In this document: in pieces, positions 23,151 through 33,158 of the stretch
How the letters are laid out: each line of letters opens with the position of its first letter
How positions within the stretch are numbered: the first letter of the stretch is position 1
Assembly: GCA_003555415.1 (NCBI GenBank)
Contig: PWHX01000101.1
Coordinates: 1 to 40,748, forward strand
DNA from: Syntrophomonadaceae bacterium
GTDB taxonomy: Bacteria > Bacillota > Dethiobacteria > SKNC01
Length of the DNA stretch: 40,748 nt
Direction of reading: 5' to 3'
Made by a program: the position numbers and the translations under genes
The notes under the pieces: generated by a model
What the model was told of the DNA's origin: nothing
Seen by the model: the letters and a program-made list of their open reading frames with translations, nothing else
The model's database searches: none

Positions 23151-23921
23151 CTAAATATACTGCCAGGGGCAGATCTTTTTTTCCAACAAATCCACCACTA
23201 TGAAAAGAGCCAGTCCCAAAAGGCTCATGGCTATGATTCCGGCAAAAACCTCCTGGTATCTCCCCCGCATAGAAGCATCCAGTATAAAATATCCTATTCC
23301 CCGCACAGTAGCAAAGGTTTCCGTCAAAAATAATACAGCCATAGCCGTACCCAGGCTTATGCGAAGGGAAGTAAAAATTTTAGGCAAACTTGCCGGAATA
23401 AACACATGCTTAAAAAGGTCCCATTCACTTGCCCCCAGGGAAACAACGGAACAAATGATTTGTTTGTTAATATCTCTCACCGCATCCCTGGTTGTTACCA
23501 GTATCTGATAAAAAATTATAAGGCTTATTAGAAATATTTTTGAAGTTTCGCCAATACCTAATATCCCCATCAATACAGGAAGTAAAGCTATCTTGGGTAT
23601 GGGATAGGTTAAATAAATAACAGGGGAAGCACAGTTATCTATCTTTTTCCAGCGGCCAATAACCATTCCTGATACAGTTCCCAGAAAAAGAGCAATTATA
23701 AGGCTGGACATAACTCTAAAAGTTCTCTGTAAAAGGTGGGGAAGCAAATCAGAAATAAATATCCTTGAAAAAGTGCTCAGGGACAACCAGGGCGTAGGTA
23801 AAACCGGTTTATTTATGATAAAAGACAATAAAGCCCATAATAATAATAAAAATAGAAAAGCCAGTAATAGTTCTAATACTTTTTTATACTTTGTTCTCTT
23901 TAAGTTCATGGGCTCTTCCAT
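23151..23921 (-). CDS. ABC transporter permease (SsuC/TauC/ThiX-like)
   Basis: 256 aa; multiple TM helices and a permease loop (GASEWDLFKHVFIPASLPKIFTSLRISLGTAMAVLFLTE). Confidence 0.93.
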   Translation of the reverse strand: MEEPMNLKRTKYKKVLELLLAFLFLLLLWALLSFIINKPVLPTPWLSLSTFSRIFISDLLPHLLQRTFRVMSSLIIALFLGTVSGMVIGRWKKIDNCASPVIYLTYPIPKIALLPVLMGILGIGETSKIFLISLIIFYQILVTTRDAVRDINKQIICSVVSLGASEWDLFKHVFIPASLPKIFTSLRISLGTAMAVLFLTETFATVRGIGYFILDASMRGRYQEVFAGIIAMSLLGLALFIVVDLLEKKICPWQYI

Positions 23922-24663
23922 CCTCCAACAGGGAACGTACTTTGCTACAAATTCTGTAAAACTCCGGACGACGCTTAAGACTAGGGTCTCCGAAATATGG
24001 GTTGCTGATATTTGATATTATAGTGCCGGGTCCAGGAGAGAAAATGGCAATTCTCTGCCCCAGATATACAGCTTCTTCAATACTGTGGGTAACCAAAAGT
24101 ATCGTTACCGGTTTTTCCTGCCAGATATTTAACAACAGCTCCTGTAATTCCTCTCTGGTAATAGCATCTAATGCAGAAAACGGCTCATCCATAAGCAGCA
24201 GGTCGGGTTCCAGGGTTAAAGCCCTGGCTATAGCTACTCTCTGCCTCATGCCCCCGCTGAGCTGTCCGGGATAATAATTTTTAAACTTTAATAAATCAAG
24301 CTGGTTTAAAATATTCTTTACTCTCTGTTCCTGGTACTCCTGTGAACAGCCCCGGATAGAAAGACCCAGGGCTGCATTATTCCATACGTTTTTCCAGGGA
24401 AGTAAGCCAAAATCCTGCAAGATAAGCGCTGTTTTTTTACGCTTGGCTTTAACCGGCTTCCCGTTTATTAAAGCCGTACCGGAATTAAAAGGCACTAACC
24501 CGGCAAGGGCATATAAAAGGGTAGTTTTACCACAGCCCGAGGGACCTATAATTGCACAGGTTTCCCCTTCTTTTACTTCCAGGTCTACCCTGTTTAAAGC
24601 CACAAGCTTATCGTATAAATTTTGATACTCTACCAACATGTTCTTAACTATAATCATTTTCAA
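23884..24663 (-). CDS. ABC transporter ATP-binding protein (SsuB/TauB/ThiZ-like)
   Basis: 259 aa; GPSGCGKTTLL Walker A, LSGGMRQRVAIARAL signature, LLLMDEPFSALD Walker B. Confidence 0.96.
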   Translation of the reverse strand: MKMIIVKNMLVEYQNLYDKLVALNRVDLEVKEGETCAIIGPSGCGKTTLLYALAGLVPFNSGTALINGKPVKAKRKKTALILQDFGLLPWKNVWNNAALGLSIRGCSQEYQEQRVKNILNQLDLLKFKNYYPGQLSGGMRQRVAIARALTLEPDLLLMDEPFSALDAITREELQELLLNIWQEKPVTILLVTHSIEEAVYLGQRIAIFSPGPGTIISNISNPYFGDPSLKRRPEFYRICSKVRSLLEDGRAHELKENKV

Positions 24664-25623
24664 CTACTCCACAAATTCGTTTGTAATTAAGTCCTCATAA
24701 GTCAAATCAAGGTCAATTCTTCCTTCAAGCCAGTTCAAATATTTATTCACACCTTCCCTGTCAGGGAGAAGAGGCTCTCCAAAGTAAGGGATTTCATAGG
24801 TGTCAATAATCTCTTCTGGAAACCTTAACTTTTCTAAAAGCAGGTCATTATAGACGGAAGGGTCCGGGTTTATCAACTCAGCTGCCTCCCGCCAAGCCTG
24901 GTAAAACTTATTAATGGCTTCCTTCTTTTCCTCTATAGCCTCGTCTGTAAAAATAATTACCGAGGGAATTAACCCCTCTTTATCACTTTCTGTTACCATT
25001 ACCGCACCCTGCTCAACAGTTAAGGTCCCCAAAGGCTCCGGTATAGAGACTGCATCAACTTGATCCTGTAGGAGCATTTCCCGACGTAAAGGTATAGCCG
25101 CAATGGCTTCCTTATTTACATCTTCAGGAGTTAAACCATAATTAGCCAGTATCCCGTCCACCATAAATTCAATAATGGTATTTTTAGAAAGGCCTATTGT
25201 TTTTCCTTTTAAGTCATCTACCGATTTTATGCCTGATTCAGGAGAAGCAATTATAGCAAAGTTTCCTTCGTTTAAAGAGGTAATCTTAACGTCAAAACCG
25301 CTGTCCTGGAAAAACCCTACCGCTACTATGTCTGAAATAGCACCATCGATTTGTCCCGCCTGTATAGCCTGGTCCCTTTCCATGGCCTTGCTGAAATATT
25401 CCAAATCTACCTCTATGCCCATGTCTTCAAAGATTCCCTCTTTTTCCGCTACTACCATGGGCAAGCAGGTTACATCAGGTAGAAGGCCAAAACGCAGAGT
25501 ACTTTTCTCCTGCTCCGGTGTATTATCATTACAACCAGTCATGGCAAATACTAACATGAATGCCAGGCATGTTAATAAAATAACTTGTAGTTTAGCACTT
25601 TTAACCTTAAATATCTTTTTCAT
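24664..25623 (-). CDS. ABC transporter substrate-binding lipoprotein (NMT1/SsuA/ThiY-like)
   Basis: Signal peptide with lipobox FAMTGC; LRFGLLPDVTCLPMVVAEKEGIFEDMGIEVDLEYF; start revised to internal ATG after AAAGGAAG. Confidence 0.9.
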   Translation of the reverse strand: MKKIFKVKSAKLQVILLTCLAFMLVFAMTGCNDNTPEQEKSTLRFGLLPDVTCLPMVVAEKEGIFEDMGIEVDLEYFSKAMERDQAIQAGQIDGAISDIVAVGFFQDSGFDVKITSLNEGNFAIIASPESGIKSVDDLKGKTIGLSKNTIIEFMVDGILANYGLTPEDVNKEAIAAIPLRREMLLQDQVDAVSIPEPLGTLTVEQGAVMVTESDKEGLIPSVIIFTDEAIEEKKEAINKFYQAWREAAELINPDPSVYNDLLLEKLRFPEEIIDTYEIPYFGEPLLPDREGVNKYLNWLEGRIDLDLTYEDLITNEFVE

Positions 25624-25675
25624 ATTCTTTCTTCCTTTCTTTTTCATAATAAAGCTTTAATTATAATAACGCGTT

Positions 25676-26965
25676 TTATAATTCAGCCAGAACCCTGTCC
25701 AGCTCTTTAACAACCTGATCTACATCATTCTTGCTTATTATCAGAGGTGGTTGGAAGGCCAGAACATTACGGCTTGGACCGTTTTTACCGATAATCACAC
25801 CTGCGTTTTTAAGATATTCCAACACCTTATCGGTTTCTTCAACAGCTGGCTCTTTTCCTTCCCTGACCAGTTCAGCTCCCAACATCAGTCCGATTCCCCG
25901 AACATCACCTATTATAGGGTGTTTGTCCTTTAGTTCCAAGAGTTTTTCCTTAAAATAAGGGCCTACCTCTGCTGCATTTTTCACTAACTTCTCCTTTTCA
26001 ATAACCTCCAGGGTCGCCAAAGAAGCTGCTGCGGTAACCGGGTTCCCTCCTAGAGTAGAAGCTCCGGGACGGGTATAACAATCTGCCACATCGCTTTCGG
26101 CAATAAAGGCTCCTACAGGAGTCCCGTTAGCCAGAGCCTTGGCTACAGTCATTATCTGGGGATCTACACCGTAATTTTCTATAGCAAACATTTTTCCCGT
26201 CCGACCAAAACCAGTTTGAATTTCATCCACAATTAATAATATTTCATGACGGTCTAAGATTTCCTTAACCACTTTAAAATAATCCAGGGGAGGGGTAATA
26301 ACCCCACCGTTTCCCTGTATGGGCTCAGCTATGAAGGCCGCTACATTACCTGAGGTACTTGTCTGTATGACTTTTTCTATCTCTTTGGCACAGGCCAGGT
26401 CACAGTCAGGATAAGTCCCTTCATAGGGACAACGGTAACAATATGCATTGGGAGCAAAGCTTATCCCTCCCACCGGGTTGGGGTCCGTCCTCCAAAAACT
26501 TAAGCCTGTCAAACTCATGGTAAGATAAGTCCGGCCGTGAAGACCGCTTCTCAAGCTTATAAACTCTGAATTACCTGTGTAGAGCTTGGCCAAAAGAGCT
26601 GCCCCTTCATTGGCTTCTGTCCCGCTGCTGCAAAAGAAACTCTTTTTTAACTTTCCGGGAGTTACCTGAGCCAGTTTCTCCGCCAGGTCAACAATAGGCT
26701 GGGTCAGATATATGGTTGTAGTATGCTGAAGGGTTTTTACCTGCCGACAAACCTCCTCCGTTATTTCAGGATGACAGTGCCCCGCTCCCACTACAGAAAC
26801 CCCGGCAAAGAAGTCCAGGTACTGTTTCCCCGTATGGTCAAACAAATACTTCCCTTCCCCCTTTACAATTTGCATGGGTTCCTGGTAAAAATGATATACG
26901 CAGGGAATCATATACTCCTGCTTCTTTTCTATTATTTTATCCGGGCCGATAAATTTATCCTGCAA
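25676..26965 (-). CDS. Class III PLP-dependent aminotransferase (AGXT2-like)
   Basis: 429 aa; LDFFAGVSVVGAGHCHPEI, DEIQTGFGRTGKMFA, PLP-lysine region VAKALANGTPVGAF; Cys insert CYRCPYEGTYPDCDLAC. Confidence 0.9.
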   Translation of the reverse strand: MQDKFIGPDKIIEKKQEYMIPCVYHFYQEPMQIVKGEGKYLFDHTGKQYLDFFAGVSVVGAGHCHPEITEEVCRQVKTLQHTTTIYLTQPIVDLAEKLAQVTPGKLKKSFFCSSGTEANEGAALLAKLYTGNSEFISLRSGLHGRTYLTMSLTGLSFWRTDPNPVGGISFAPNAYCYRCPYEGTYPDCDLACAKEIEKVIQTSTSGNVAAFIAEPIQGNGGVITPPLDYFKVVKEILDRHEILLIVDEIQTGFGRTGKMFAIENYGVDPQIMTVAKALANGTPVGAFIAESDVADCYTRPGASTLGGNPVTAAASLATLEVIEKEKLVKNAAEVGPYFKEKLLELKDKHPIIGDVRGIGLMLGAELVREGKEPAVEETDKVLEYLKNAGVIIGKNGPSRNVLAFQPPLIISKNDVDQVVKELDRVLAEL

Positions 26966-27001: not shown

Positions 27002-29047
27002 TTACAACCTGCTTGAGAAAAACGCTTTTCCTTTCTCTTTTATTTTGCTATCCTTGAGCTTAACTCCTTTTAAATAACCCCCAAAACCGTAAGGAACATT
27101 ATGAAGGGATTTAAGCTTTCTCCAGTCCTCCATTTCAAACCTGTACCCTTCAGGATTTTCTATTATTAAAGAAATTTGTTTGTGGTACAAGGCTGTAACA
27201 GGGCCAACTTTTTCTGGTGGATAGGTCCTCAGGTCCAGGCGAAAACCGGCAGCCCCGGTTTTTATGAAAGCCTGCATGAAAGGCAGGAGGGCCAGTTCAT
27301 TGGCCAGGAAAATATGGTTGCGGCAGTCTTCGTCCACTTCTACTTCATGCTGCTGCCCCTTGTGATCAAGGAGGGAAAGCTTCTTTTCTCGGCAGGAGTA
27401 ACTGCACACATCTTCTCTGGAAACTTCCTGGAGCAGGGCTGCCGGCAGACAGTGATCCATAATCATAGCCGTTAGAGGACCATGAGCTAAAAATTCATAA
27501 GGTATAGATGACTTTTGCAGAAGAGATACCGCATGTTCAAACCTGGTTTCCGGTTGAACCGTTAACTGTTTAACCCCCAGTTTCTTTAATAATTCTACCG
27601 CGGAACTATTAATAACGTTAAGGGAGAAATCACCGTAAAGGGGTAAACTGCTATATCTGCTGACCTGGTAGAGAGTGCCCAGATTGGCAGCCATTATTCC
27701 TGAAGGCTTTAAATCTTCAAGTTGCTCTAACAGATGCCTTACTTTATCTACTTCTCTACCCTGCGTAATTCTAGGGGTGGTAACAACTACATCAACTCCT
27801 GCCTCCCGGCAGTAATTAACCCCATAATAAAGATCTGCCCCAGTCCATCTCCCCCCGGAACTATTAAAGGATTCCCCTCCGATATAAACCAAATCTGCAT
27901 CGTTCTTAACTGCTTCTACCATTCCCTTTATACTACCTGTTCTAACAGCCAGCCTGGGGAGTGCCCCCTTTTTACGTGCTTTCATTTTATCTTGATCCTT
28001 CATTTGAACAAGCTTATCTTCAAAAAACTGTCCCCCAATATCTTCATCTTTAATTTCTTTTTCTCTTACGGCAGAGCTAAAAAAACGAGGTTCCCTTTCT
28101 CCACTGTAACCAATAGAGGAAGGTCCGGGATTTTTAAAAGCATAAAGGGTGCTGTAATCCCTGATCCTCTTTTTGTGCAGATACTTAAAATCTTCCGGGT
28201 CTAAACTGTATCCCACCGGATCATCAATAAACTTGTCCAGGTGCCTCCGGTAAACACTCACAATATCCCTGAGATATTCAGCTGTCCTCATCCTGCCTTC
28301 TATTTTTAAAGAGCAAATCCCTGAATCAGATAATTCTGGAATAAAGGGCAACATACACATGTCCTTAACCGCAAGGGGATACTTTTTCTCCCGGGAGAGG
28401 TTTATTATCCTTTCCTCCTCTTTGTCCCACAAATCAAAGGACCAGCGACAGGGCTTCTTACACCTGCCCCGGTTACTGCTTTCCCCAAAAACCATGCCGC
28501 TATGGTAGCACTGGCCACTCTGGCAAACGCACATATCACCATGTATGAAATACTCCAGCTCCATACCAGTATTTTTAAGAAGCTCTCTAGCTTCTACCAG
28601 GGATATTTCCCGAGAAAGAATGACTCTGCTTACTCCAAATTCCTCCAACATCTTTATGGCGGGTTCACTGTGGGTATTCATCATTACGCTGGAATGCAGA
28701 GGAATATTAATACCCAGGTCCCTGATAAGCTTTGCCAGACCAATATCCTGGATAATAAGTGCATCCGGCTTAACCTTGCTTAAAAATTTTAAGTAAGGCT
28801 TTAATTCCTCCAGCTCTTCATCAAAAAGGAGGTTATTAACCGTAACGTAAATATTTACGCCTCTTTCATGAGCATACTTTACAGCAGCTTCAATTTCTTC
28901 ATCAGAAAAATTAAAATCCTGACGAAACATGCGCATATTATGTTTTTTACTGCCCAAATAGACAGCATCGGCTCCTGCTTCTATAACAGTCTCCAGCACA
29001 TCCCACTTACCTGCCGGCGCCAATAACTCTAATTTCCCCTGGTTCAT
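27002..29047 (-). CDS. Tandem (two-module) U32 peptidase-family protein, YrrO/RlhA-like
   Basis: LELLAPAGKWDVLETVIEAGADAVYLGSK; HGDMCVCQSGQC...RGRCKKPCRW; second U32-like half with HGPLTAMIMDHC...CSYSC...C; start revised to MNQGK after GAGGGGG. Confidence 0.88.
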   Translation of the reverse strand: MNQGKLELLAPAGKWDVLETVIEAGADAVYLGSKKHNMRMFRQDFNFSDEEIEAAVKYAHERGVNIYVTVNNLLFDEELEELKPYLKFLSKVKPDALIIQDIGLAKLIRDLGINIPLHSSVMMNTHSEPAIKMLEEFGVSRVILSREISLVEARELLKNTGMELEYFIHGDMCVCQSGQCYHSGMVFGESSNRGRCKKPCRWSFDLWDKEEERIINLSREKKYPLAVKDMCMLPFIPELSDSGICSLKIEGRMRTAEYLRDIVSVYRRHLDKFIDDPVGYSLDPEDFKYLHKKRIRDYSTLYAFKNPGPSSIGYSGEREPRFFSSAVREKEIKDEDIGGQFFEDKLVQMKDQDKMKARKKGALPRLAVRTGSIKGMVEAVKNDADLVYIGGESFNSSGGRWTGADLYYGVNYCREAGVDVVVTTPRITQGREVDKVRHLLEQLEDLKPSGIMAANLGTLYQVSRYSSLPLYGDFSLNVINSSAVELLKKLGVKQLTVQPETRFEHAVSLLQKSSIPYEFLAHGPLTAMIMDHCLPAALLQEVSREDVCSYSCREKKLSLLDHKGQQHEVEVDEDCRNHIFLANELALLPFMQAFIKTGAAGFRLDLRTYPPEKVGPVTALYHKQISLIIENPEGYRFEMEDWRKLKSLHNVPYGFGGYLKGVKLKDSKIKEKGKAFFSSRL

Positions 29048-29079
29048 AATATTAAACCCCCTCATTTAAGAGCGCCATT

Positions 29080-30597
29080 TTAGTATATAACGGTGGCCTG
29101 TTCTAAAAATTTAGTTGAAACATCTAAACCTAGATACCTGGCTGTGTTTAAATTAATAGCAAGCCTGGGCTGCTCAGGTCGGCCTATAGGAATATCTGAA
29201 GGCTCTCTGCCCTGAAGAATCTCAGCAGCCATATATCCTGCGCTCACGCCCAAATCATAATGACTGGCGTACAGGCCTAGTAAAGCTCCCTTTCTTACCC
29301 CTGTTTCATCGGGAACTATTAAAGGAACCTTCTTTTCCCTGGCAGTAGATATAAGAAGAGAAATGTTTTGCTCCACTACAGGGCTAATGGGAACAAAAAT
29401 TCCATCCCCAGAACTAAGTCTTTTCCGTGCTAAATCCTTAATATCTCCAGACTGCCTGACAGGCAATGTTTCTATTTTTAAACCCATTCCGGCAGCAGCT
29501 GCCAGGACATAATCCAGCTCTATGGCTGTGTTAGGATTTCCTTCTTCATAAATGATAACCAGTTTTCTAAGTCGGGGATATATCTCCTTAAACCTGGCAA
29601 GTTTTAATTCTGAAGAAACCAGTCCGCTTACCCCGGTTAAATGATTTTCAGAACTTTCCCAGCCGGCTACCAGTCCAACCTTAACGGGGTCTAAAACAGG
29701 AGTAAATACTACAGGTATTCCTTGTCCTTCACCAGCTCCAGCCCCTGCCTTGGCTGCCGGTGTAGTACAGGCAAACATTAAATCAACACCTCGACTAACC
29801 AGCTCTCCTGCTTCATCAGCCAAAAGAGGAACCTTACCCTCAACATTCCTGTAATCATAGTGTATTTCTGCATCTTTAAAAGAAGATATCCCTTCCTTAA
29901 AACCTTCCACCGCATCATCTAAGTGAGAGGTGAGTTGTAGAATACCTATATTGTACTTAAATTCTTTATCTTTTCCGATTCTATCTTTCACTTCGCCCCA
30001 GGAATTGTATAAATCATGTTCTATCTCCAGGTTTTCCATTATACGTCCCGTAATAAAATTTAAAAGATCCTCTATATTGTAAGGTTTGTGATAAAAAGCC
30101 GGCATGGCAGGTAATATAGTAACCCCCATCTGACTCAAGCTGAGGAGATTTTGCAGATGAATACTGCTCAAGGGAGTTTCCCTGGGCACTAAAATTAGCT
30201 TACGTCCTTCTTTAATGGCTACATCAGCAGCCCTTTCTAAAAGATCCCGGGAACTTCCCCGGGCTATGCCGGAAACTGTAGCCATAGAGCAGGGAACAAC
30301 TACCATGGCATCAATCTTAAAAGAACCACTGGCTACTGAAGCAGCTATATCCTTATTATCCATTAAAATAAAGCGGTTATCTTCCCTTAAAGGAATCTCA
30401 AAGAAATTCTTAAGCTGTTTTTGCTGATCAAAAAAGTCTCCCTTCAACTTAAAGTTCAGTTCTTTTTCCATAACCAGCTTCCCGGGATCGGTAATAATTA
30501 AAAATATTTTATGGTCCGTTTTATAGAGTTCCTTTACCAGGTTTCGGGCATAATCTATACCACTGGCCCCGGTAATACCAATAACTATATTTTTCAT
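29080..30597 (-). CDS. Fusion protein: N-terminal UbiX/MqnM-like flavin prenyltransferase + C-terminal TrpX-like ABC substrate-binding (ABC_sub_bind type) domain
   Basis: N-half: GITGASG, DIAASVASGSF, VVPCS, RETPL, PAFYHKP. C-half: YNIGILQLTSHLDDAVEGFKEGI, CTTPAAKA, IPVVFTPVLDPVKVGLV, LTGVSG, IVPDETGVRKGALLGLYASHYDLGVSAGYMAAEILQGREPSDIPI, LAINLNTARYLGL. Single uninterrupted ORF, no signal peptide. Confidence 0.9.
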   Translation of the reverse strand: MKNIVIGITGASGIDYARNLVKELYKTDHKIFLIITDPGKLVMEKELNFKLKGDFFDQQKQLKNFFEIPLREDNRFILMDNKDIAASVASGSFKIDAMVVVPCSMATVSGIARGSSRDLLERAADVAIKEGRKLILVPRETPLSSIHLQNLLSLSQMGVTILPAMPAFYHKPYNIEDLLNFITGRIMENLEIEHDLYNSWGEVKDRIGKDKEFKYNIGILQLTSHLDDAVEGFKEGISSFKDAEIHYDYRNVEGKVPLLADEAGELVSRGVDLMFACTTPAAKAGAGAGEGQGIPVVFTPVLDPVKVGLVAGWESSENHLTGVSGLVSSELKLARFKEIYPRLRKLVIIYEEGNPNTAIELDYVLAAAAGMGLKIETLPVRQSGDIKDLARKRLSSGDGIFVPISPVVEQNISLLISTAREKKVPLIVPDETGVRKGALLGLYASHYDLGVSAGYMAAEILQGREPSDIPIGRPEQPRLAINLNTARYLGLDVSTKFLEQATVIY

Positions 30598-30654: not shown

Positions 30655-31521
30655 TTATATATTAGTTATGAAAAACAGGTCTATCATAGTAAAAAATAAA
30701 ACAGTTATACCTATCAACTCGTTTATATGATAAGAGGCTATTTTCACCCTGGCCAGGTTATCCGGAGAAACTATTTTATGCTCGTACAATAAAAGGCCTG
30801 CGGCAACAAAAACACCCAGGAAATATATATAACCAAAAGGGAAAAATAAAGGTAAAAGAGCTAAAAGAATAATGGTAACAAGATGAAAAGCTTTAGCTAT
30901 GGTTAATGCAGCGCTGATGCCAAACCTGGCGGGAATGGCATGAATTTTTTCCTTCCGGTCAAAATCAACATCCTGGGTAGCATATATAATATCAAAACCG
31001 GCAACCCATAAAGTTACTACCATGGTCAATATGAAAGGCGGCAGCGCCATTTCTCCCGTCACGGCTATCCATGCACCCAGAGGAGCAAGCCCAACAGCCA
31101 GGCCCAGGACAAGATGACAGGCCCAGGTAAAGCGCTTGGTATAAGAGTATCCTGCTAAAATAATAACCGCCAGCGGCAGAAGCTTTACACAGAGTTCGTT
31201 CAGCTGGAAAGCAGATACGATTAAAAGCGTCAACCCGACTATACTCAACACCAGTATTTCAACCGGTTTAACCTTCCCCCGGGGTAAATGCCGGGAAGCT
31301 GTTCTGGGATTTTTTGCATCTATTTTCCAGTCTATAAGCCTATTCAGAGCATTGGCGGCATTCCGGGCACCTGCCATGGCTACCAGTATCCAAAACAAAT
31401 TATTAAAAGGAGGCCATCCTCCAGCAGCCATAAAAGCCCCCATAAAAGCAAAGGGAAGAGAAAACAAAGTATGCCTAAACATTACTACTTCACCGTAAGC
31501 TTTTAATTTATTCCAAACCAT
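30655..31521 (-). CDS. UbiA-family prenyltransferase (MqnP-like candidate)
   Basis: 288 aa; polytopic; NRLIDWKIDAKNPRT and YATQDVDFDRKEK Asp-rich motifs. Confidence 0.92.
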   Translation of the reverse strand: MVWNKLKAYGEVVMFRHTLFSLPFAFMGAFMAAGGWPPFNNLFWILVAMAGARNAANALNRLIDWKIDAKNPRTASRHLPRGKVKPVEILVLSIVGLTLLIVSAFQLNELCVKLLPLAVIILAGYSYTKRFTWACHLVLGLAVGLAPLGAWIAVTGEMALPPFILTMVVTLWVAGFDIIYATQDVDFDRKEKIHAIPARFGISAALTIAKAFHLVTIILLALLPLFFPFGYIYFLGVFVAAGLLLYEHKIVSPDNLARVKIASYHINELIGITVLFFTMIDLFFITNI

Positions 31522-32950
31522 ACTCCTTCCACTTCCTGTCTACAAGCTCTTTAATTTCCGGGCTCATTTCTATTTCATCAGGCCATTCCCGGAAGTGCCC
31601 CTCAGAAGGTCCTTTTATCGTCGCATCTATACCCATCTTGGCCCCGTAATTTGGCAAAGGTGAAGCATGATCCAGAGCGTCGAGGGGCCCATCCACAATC
31701 ATTAGATCCCTTTTGGGATCTACATTATTAAATACCTTCCAGAATACGGCAGACAAATCCTGGGGATCTACATTCTCATCAACCACAATAATTATCTTGG
31801 TAAACATCATCTGACCCAGACCCCATAGGGCATTTATAACTTTACGGGCCTGTCCGGGATAGGTCTTTTTTATAGATACTATTGCACAATTATGAAAAAC
31901 TCCTTCTAACGGCAGGTTAATATCTAAAACTTCCGGCATCAACATCTTTAACAAAGGCAAAAATATTCTTTCCGTAGCCTTAGCCAAGTAGCAATCCTCC
32001 ATAGGAGGCCTACCTACTACTGTAGCCGGGTAAACAGCATTTTTCTTATGAGTCATACACGTAATATGAAATACAGGGTACTTATCAGCCAGGGAATAAT
32101 AGCCGGTATGGTCACCGAAGGGGCCCTCCACCTTGAATTCTTCCTGGGGATCTACATACCCTTCTAAAATAAACTCTGCGTGGGCCGGCACATAAAGGTC
32201 TACAGTTTTACATTTTACTTCTTCCACCGGAGATTTCTTTAAAAAACCGGCAAATATTAGTTCGTATAAGTTTTTAGGAAGGGGTGCCGTAGAAGCATAT
32301 ATAGTTGCCGGGTCTCCCCCTAAAGCTACAGCAACCTCCATCTTCTGGCCCCGCCTCTTATACTTAGAAAAATTACTGGCCCCGTCTTTATGCAGATGCC
32401 AATGCATTCCTGTAGTTTTGTGATCATAAACCTGTAACCGGTACATGCCGACATTGCGCTCCTCTGTTTCCGGGTCTTTAGTAAATACCAGAGGTAAAGT
32501 AATATATTTCCCCCCATCTTGGGGCCAACATTTAGGGATAGGCAGTTTATCCAGGTCCGGGTCCCTAACTACCTCCTGACAAGGCGCTTTTTTTACCTTC
32601 TTTGGTGGATATCCTGCCACCTGGGATAAAATGGGAATGGTTTTTAATTTGTCCATAATTTTTTTAGCGGAAAAGGCTTCTAGCATGGAATTTATTTCCT
32701 CCGCTATGTCGTCCAAGCTCTCCACCCCTAACGACATACTCATTCTTTCATTAGTTCCAAAGGTATTTATGACTAAAGGGAATTCTGAGCCTTTTACGTT
32801 TTCAAACATTAAAGCTGGACCGTATTTTTTAGATATCCGGTCCGTTATTTCTGTTATTTCCAGTTCAGGATCAACTTCTGTTGTAATTCTGCGCAGTTGC
32901 CCCTTACTTTCTATAAAGGCAATAAATTCCTGCAGATCTTTAAAAGCCAA
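31508..32950 (-). CDS. UbiD-family prFMN-dependent decarboxylase (MqnL-like candidate); start revised to TTG at 32950
   Basis: LAFKDLQEFIAFIESKGQLRRI, MHWHLHKDGASNF, EGPFGDHTGYYSLADKYPVFHIT, PPMEDCYLAKATERIFLPLL; SD AAGGAGGGGG directly before the TTG. Confidence 0.94.
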   Translation of the reverse strand: MAFKDLQEFIAFIESKGQLRRITTEVDPELEITEITDRISKKYGPALMFENVKGSEFPLVINTFGTNERMSMSLGVESLDDIAEEINSMLEAFSAKKIMDKLKTIPILSQVAGYPPKKVKKAPCQEVVRDPDLDKLPIPKCWPQDGGKYITLPLVFTKDPETEERNVGMYRLQVYDHKTTGMHWHLHKDGASNFSKYKRRGQKMEVAVALGGDPATIYASTAPLPKNLYELIFAGFLKKSPVEEVKCKTVDLYVPAHAEFILEGYVDPQEEFKVEGPFGDHTGYYSLADKYPVFHITCMTHKKNAVYPATVVGRPPMEDCYLAKATERIFLPLLKMLMPEVLDINLPLEGVFHNCAIVSIKKTYPGQARKVINALWGLGQMMFTKIIIVVDENVDPQDLSAVFWKVFNNVDPKRDLMIVDGPLDALDHASPLPNYGAKMGIDATIKGPSEGHFREWPDEIEMSPEIKELVDRKWKEYGLE

Positions 32951-33158
32951 AAAACCCCCTCCTTCTGTATAAAAACAAATACTATAATAGAAATCCCTAT
33001 CACGCCATTGTTTCATATTCGACAACAACCTACTATTTCCTTCCCTGAAACATCTACTTTTTATATTCTCCATAAACTGCCGTTTAAACTTGAAGATTAA
33101 TGCCACATGATATATTATTTAGTATGTAAATATTTAAACAATGAAGGGAAGTTAAAAA

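Follow-up and report, generated by a model that had tools for sequence, protein, structure and literature searches.

UbiX makes prenylated FMN (prFMN) for UbiD. In a Syntrophomonadaceae bacterium, a single open frame continues from a UbiX into a solute-binding domain of the TrpX type, a kind of protein that is normally an exported lipoprotein. The frame lies in a 40,748-nucleotide stretch of contig PWHX01000101.1, referred to here as the window. The locus raises the questions of whether the two halves are truly one gene, what the binding half may hold inside the cell, and what could follow from carrying a binding protein on a cofactor-making enzyme.

The fused gene and its distribution

The frame encodes 505 residues on the minus strand, from M at position 30597 to a stop codon at 29080–29082. 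It harbors a complete UbiX and a complete PF04392 (ABC_sub_bind) domain, as was claimed in the original prediction, and all of the UbiX and binding-domain motifs quoted there are found. The N-terminal half scores 195.4 bits against TIGR00421 (cut-off of 108.9), and its AlphaFold model matches many solved UbiX structures in Foldseek with TM values of ~0.9. This half is a complete UbiX flavin prenyltransferase, with the enzymatic role assigned by homology. The tyrosine of AFYHKP and the tryptophan of NSWGE correspond to residues Y169 and W200 of PaUbiX (PMC6541611) and are kept in 5/5 fusions. The equivalent of the PaUbiX glutamate at position 49 is D, E, G, G, and E in the five fusions, a position that varies in solved UbiX relatives as well. 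The fusion is the sole protein above the UbiX cut-off in each of the five genomes.

The C-terminal half scores 160 bits against PF04392 (cut-off of 25.9), spanning profile positions 2–290 of 293, and is part of the only PF04392 protein in the window's genome. It reaches 157.6 bits against the TrpX equivalog NF041285, below the cut-off of 390. A complete binding domain had been predicted from about residue 222; the completeness holds, while the AlphaFold model places the start at about residue 213. The anticipated binding-protein fold is also recovered, with Foldseek matches to CD0873, SP1069, and VC_1101 (TM ~0.8). The model of the whole fusion, computed as a monomer, has a mean pLDDT of 92 and a pTM of 0.60; the linker is disordered and the two domains are not confidently docked. 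The linker sequence differs between the genomes of the order.

Table 1. Features of the fused gene and of the neighboring genes in the window.
Feature	Position	Strand	Remarks
UbiD family decarboxylase, MqnL-like	31508..33106	-	TIGR03701, 660.7 bits (cut-off 495.9)
UbiA family prenyltransferase	30655..31521	-	closest to MqnP, under the MqnP cut-off
UbiX::cytosolic ABC_sub_bind fusion protein	29083..30597	-	505 aa
UbiX flavin prenyltransferase domain	29998..30588	-	residues 4-200
Flexible linker	29965..29997	-	residues 201-211 (~11 residues), pLDDT below 50
ABC_sub_bind (TrpX-type) domain	29092..29949	-	residues 217-502; pocket re-specified: P300, L302, G325, S405-P406, D430, H446
Tandem U32 protein	27002..29065	-	two U32 domains, four conserved Cys each
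Class III aminotransferase	25676..26965	-	part of the SBP-U32-aminotransferase block
SsuA/NMT1-like lipoprotein binding protein	24664..25647	-	adjoins UbiX in other lineages
SsuB/TauB-like ATP-binding subunit	23884..24663	-	
SsuC/TauC-like permease	23151..23921	-	

The window stems from a fragmented MAG of 155 contigs, and an assembly or sequencing error joining two ORFs had been named as a possible source of the fusion. However, four further genomes of the order carry an uninterrupted frame with both domains, and one of these genomes (G001) is closed as a single contig of 3,558,951 bases (3.56 Mb); the frame is thus not an assembly join. With five independent assemblies in agreement and no start codon within the linker common to all five, an artefact has negligible probability and is rejected. 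The lack of a shared start codon also argues against separate translation of the C-terminal half. Where measurable, dN/dS is 0.06–0.17 in both halves (synonymous sites are saturated for several pairs), and both the UbiX half and the binding half are to that extent under purifying selection.

The fusion is present in 5/5 genomes of the window's order, which represent three genera, with 66–69% identity over the full length. The expectation that homologs would carry it is therefore met within the order and stops there: at that match level it is found in 0/93 other genomes of the class, and none occurs beyond the order among the matches listed from 399 genomes of the sampled phylum. In a scan of genome contigs, every UbiX recovered stood alone (Nitrospinaceae, Altiarchaeota, and an alphaproteobacterium), and plasmids yielded no fusion. 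Among the long frames, those of G282 and G306 are high-GC sequence rather than fusions, and that of G334 is an exported lipoprotein-like protein. Both UbiX and PF04392 are known families; a limited search of open-access literature retrieved no description of a UbiX joined to a TrpX-like domain, in keeping with the novelty suggested for the architecture, and nothing pertinent on cytosolic solute-binding proteins.

A cytosolic binding domain with an altered pocket

No signal peptide or lipobox is present on the binding domain, as had been foreseen: UbiX precedes it, and its free-standing relatives begin at the fold. In a maximum-likelihood tree, the five fused and four free-standing cytosolic domains are split from 21 exported relatives by a 100/100 branch. 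The position of the G235 domain inside the fused/cytosolic clade is unsure because of its long branch. A PF04392 protein in G334 (L065, 5263–7212) looks exported and, with 649 residues, is far longer than one binding domain; it is encoded beside its permease and ATPase.

The conserved ligand-binding residues of S. suis TrpX are T108, A127, T129, D152, and N233 (PMC9382623), and Glu-263 and Tyr-279 are selectivity residues of CD0873 (PMC6816091). The pocket contacts of the domains considered here were placed by alignment to these positions. The exported proteins (n = 21) keep the equivalents of T108, T129, D152, and N233, as well as that of A127 in 20/21. In contrast, the fused and cytosolic domains (n = 9) keep T108 alone, and the other TrpX positions are replaced in 9/9. 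A127 is exchanged for P in 8/9, T129 for L, Y, or F, D152 for G, and N233 for P or R, and the EHPALD loop has lost its EH pair. The equivalent of CD0873 Glu-263 is N in eight domains and D in that of the window, while Tyr-279 is replaced by H in 7/9.

The original prediction favored an aromatic or amino-acid ligand. Since every one of the nine members has other residues at the positions through which TrpX and CD0873 contact the amino and acid groups, a Trp/Tyr/Phe sensor is judged unlikely. The alignment argues strongly, if not conclusively, against an α-amino acid held in the TrpX manner. The altered positions are themselves conserved within the clade, which also has its own R250, C277, K283, W313, and N318, and a changed ligand therefore fits better than a dead pocket. 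A different intracellular ligand appears more probable than Trp or Tyr.

Probable operon merging and a possible quinone context

In the window, the genes are ordered UbiD–UbiA–[UbiX::SBP–U32–aminotransferase]–SsuA–SsuB–SsuC, where SBP denotes the binding domain. This order is kept in G001–G003 and, as far as the contig extends, in G004. Outside the order, the closest relatives of the C-terminal half are found in G121, G288, and G201 (41–44% identity, frames of 303–307 residues), followed by G235 (32–34% identity); all four genomes belong to one other class. In 4/4 of them, genes for a tandem U32 protein and then a class III aminotransferase come after that for the free-standing binding protein, as they do after the window's fusion, and UbiX lies apart from this block. 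UbiX is instead found in the order UbiD–UbiA–UbiX–SsuA–SsuB–SsuC in G121, G235, and G288, the last of which has a second UbiX copy on a short contig ending within SsuA. In G201, the UbiD–UbiA–UbiX–SsuABC order was pieced from contig ends, and G312 has UbiX–SsuA–SsuB. The U32 gene beside the cytosolic binding protein of G288 lies in two frames (L057, 4054–6203), probably due to an assembly frameshift.

The simplest reading of these gene orders is that the SBP–U32–aminotransferase block entered directly after UbiX, between it and SsuA, and that UbiX and the binding protein were joined in frame at the junction. The relatives suggest that the binding protein was already intracellular and had lost its amino-acid residues before the join. 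Recruitment of the domain as a sensor of prFMN demand is made less plausible by relatives that are free-standing, accompanied by the tandem U32 protein and the aminotransferase, and located away from UbiX. The locus would be a clear illustration of how an exported nutrient-binding protein can move to the cytoplasm, lose its amino-acid site, and be joined to an enzyme of cofactor synthesis, and extant relatives document the steps.

The tandem U32 protein has a TrhP/UbiU-like first half and a UbiV-like second half. Its scores are below the equivalog cut-offs (190 of 440 bits for UbiU and 62 of 275 bits for UbiV). Two cysteine sets, C179/186/202/206 (CX6CX15CX3C) and C539/554/558/581, are invariant in seven sequences; UbiU and UbiV are Fe–S U32 hydroxylases (PMC6747719). 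At the threshold applied, 5/98 genomes of the class encode the tandem U32 protein, a distribution that matches that of the fusion.

This co-occurrence of the binding domain with the tandem U32 protein, the gene order of the second class, which fully explains the junction, and the flexible and variable linker would all suit a mere by-product of operon merging, in which two independent, uncoupled proteins share one chain and the C-terminal half continues to work as before alongside the U32 protein and the aminotransferase. However, the fusion is not split in any of the five genomes from three genera, and being fixed at a one-to-one ratio to a dodecameric enzyme would presumably not be entirely neutral; an uncoupled pair is thus considered doubtful, if not far-fetched.

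The surrounding genes point to quinone synthesis. Of the five genomes of the order, only G004 has MqnA/D (PF02621) and MqnC; neither was found in G001–G003 or in the window's own genome, which is 87% complete. Because G001 is closed, the absence of early genes there is not an assembly gap. MenD above the cut-off is found in 0/9 genomes examined, MqnC was not found in the four second-class genomes, and no methyltransferase in the order reaches the MenG/UbiE cut-off. The gene content resembles the late part of quinone synthesis, and known early genes were not found in 4/5 genomes; the genomes of the order appear to pair an ABC importer with genes for late quinone steps, either without a recognizable early pathway or with an unfamiliar one. 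The order's only futalosine genes found are clustered in G004 (L099, C13, 10308–14166) and comprise phosphorylase-like, MqnC, MqnA/D family, and MqnE-like genes.

An importer of the SsuABC/NMT1 type directly follows UbiD–UbiA–UbiX at L097, L098, L100, L083, L085, and L086 (in G121, G288, G235, G312, and G201). With neither MqnC nor MenD found in G121, G288, G235, and G201, UbiD–UbiA–UbiX–SsuABC is a candidate operon for quinone-precursor uptake. Earlier work noted that the importer of quinone precursors remained to be annotated (PMC4746308), and this gene set, carried by genomes in which early menaquinone genes were not detected, could reveal it.

On this basis, the merged operon could be an undescribed system for the anaerobic salvage of quinone head groups. 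SsuABC would import an aromatic acid, which UbiA and UbiD, the latter with prFMN from UbiX, would convert to a quinone; the tandem U32 protein would hydroxylate without oxygen, and the binding domain would keep a non-amino-acid aromatic intermediate or co-substrate (e.g., a prephenate-like acid) beside UbiX. As a complete scheme, this is quite unlikely to be correct in all its parts.

Possible function of the fusion and comparison with known systems

The explanation given the most credence, with roughly even chances of being right, is that two merged operons produced a true gene fusion whose C-terminal half binds an intracellular, non-amino-acid ligand and is tethered beside UbiX. The tethering of the binding domain to UbiX is supported. 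The ligand would most likely be an intermediate or co-substrate of the U32, aminotransferase, and UbiD steps, and the flexible tether would keep the domain beside the enzyme that makes prFMN. The UbiX structures 1SBZ and 7KM2, which are among the Foldseek matches, are dodecamers; up to twelve copies of the binding domain could therefore surround one UbiX assembly. The fusion would co-localize the two halves and fix their dosage rather than act as a proven UbiX switch. A functional linkage of the halves is suggested by the operon merging and the retention of the fusion, although retention in one order could also reflect a single ancestral event that carried no cost.

A tighter coupling can be envisaged in which ligand binding closes the domain and thereby shifts prFMN production by UbiX up or down, with the identity of the ligand left open. 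Such an allosteric sensor would account for the persistence of the physical fusion in three genera, for the constraint on both of its halves, and for the conserved pocket positions, and the domain joins just past the conserved tryptophan near the UbiX C-terminus that corresponds to PaUbiX W200 (PMC6541611). However, the free-standing relatives work unjoined to UbiX, and the amino-acid-binding residues are gone. Furthermore, a rigid allosteric device is not favored, given a disordered linker of variable sequence and domains that are not docked in the model (pTM 0.60), although the model is of a monomer and UbiX proteins form dodecamers. Overall, this mechanism is unlikely.

The proximity of the binding domain to both UbiD and UbiX could alternatively suggest that it carries prFMNH2 or passes it to UbiD, in analogy to the chaperone LpdD or the maturase PhdC, which set a precedent for the diverse partners that UbiD maturation requires (PMC10865409, PMC13040415). 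However, the same kind of protein is encoded away from UbiX in four other genomes, and no likeness to LpdD in sequence or fold emerged in Foldseek, making a carrier role highly improbable. Co-localization of a differently specified binding domain with UbiX remains the preferred explanation.

Compared with PaUbiX, Colwellia UbiX (4RHE), and MJ0101, the UbiX half shares the whole domain and the conserved motifs at ~40–45% identity and likewise has adjacent UbiD and UbiA genes; it differs in a C-terminus lengthened by the linker and a 290-residue binding domain. That domain shares the class I binding-protein fold and the PF04392 family with SP1069 (3LFT), VC_1101 (3LKV), and CD0873 (6HNI) at 26–27% identity. 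Unlike exported TrpX-type proteins, it has no export signal, lacks the EH pair and the four TrpX contacts beyond T108, and is not adjoined by a TrpYZ-type transporter. The free-standing cytosolic proteins of G121, G288, G201, and G235 belong to the same clade and have the altered pocket and the downstream U32 and aminotransferase genes, but they are unfused, and their UbiX resides in a separate operon with SsuABC. The tandem U32 protein resembles UbiU–UbiV and TrhP in having four invariant cysteines per half, yet it scores well below their cut-offs and combines two domains in one chain. Finally, with respect to the late MqnL–MqnP–MqnM steps of the futalosine pathway, the window's UbiD is above the TIGR03701 cut-off and its UbiA is closest to MqnP, whereas the early MqnA/D and MqnC accompany these genes in G004 alone, and MenD exceeds its cut-off in none of the five genomes.
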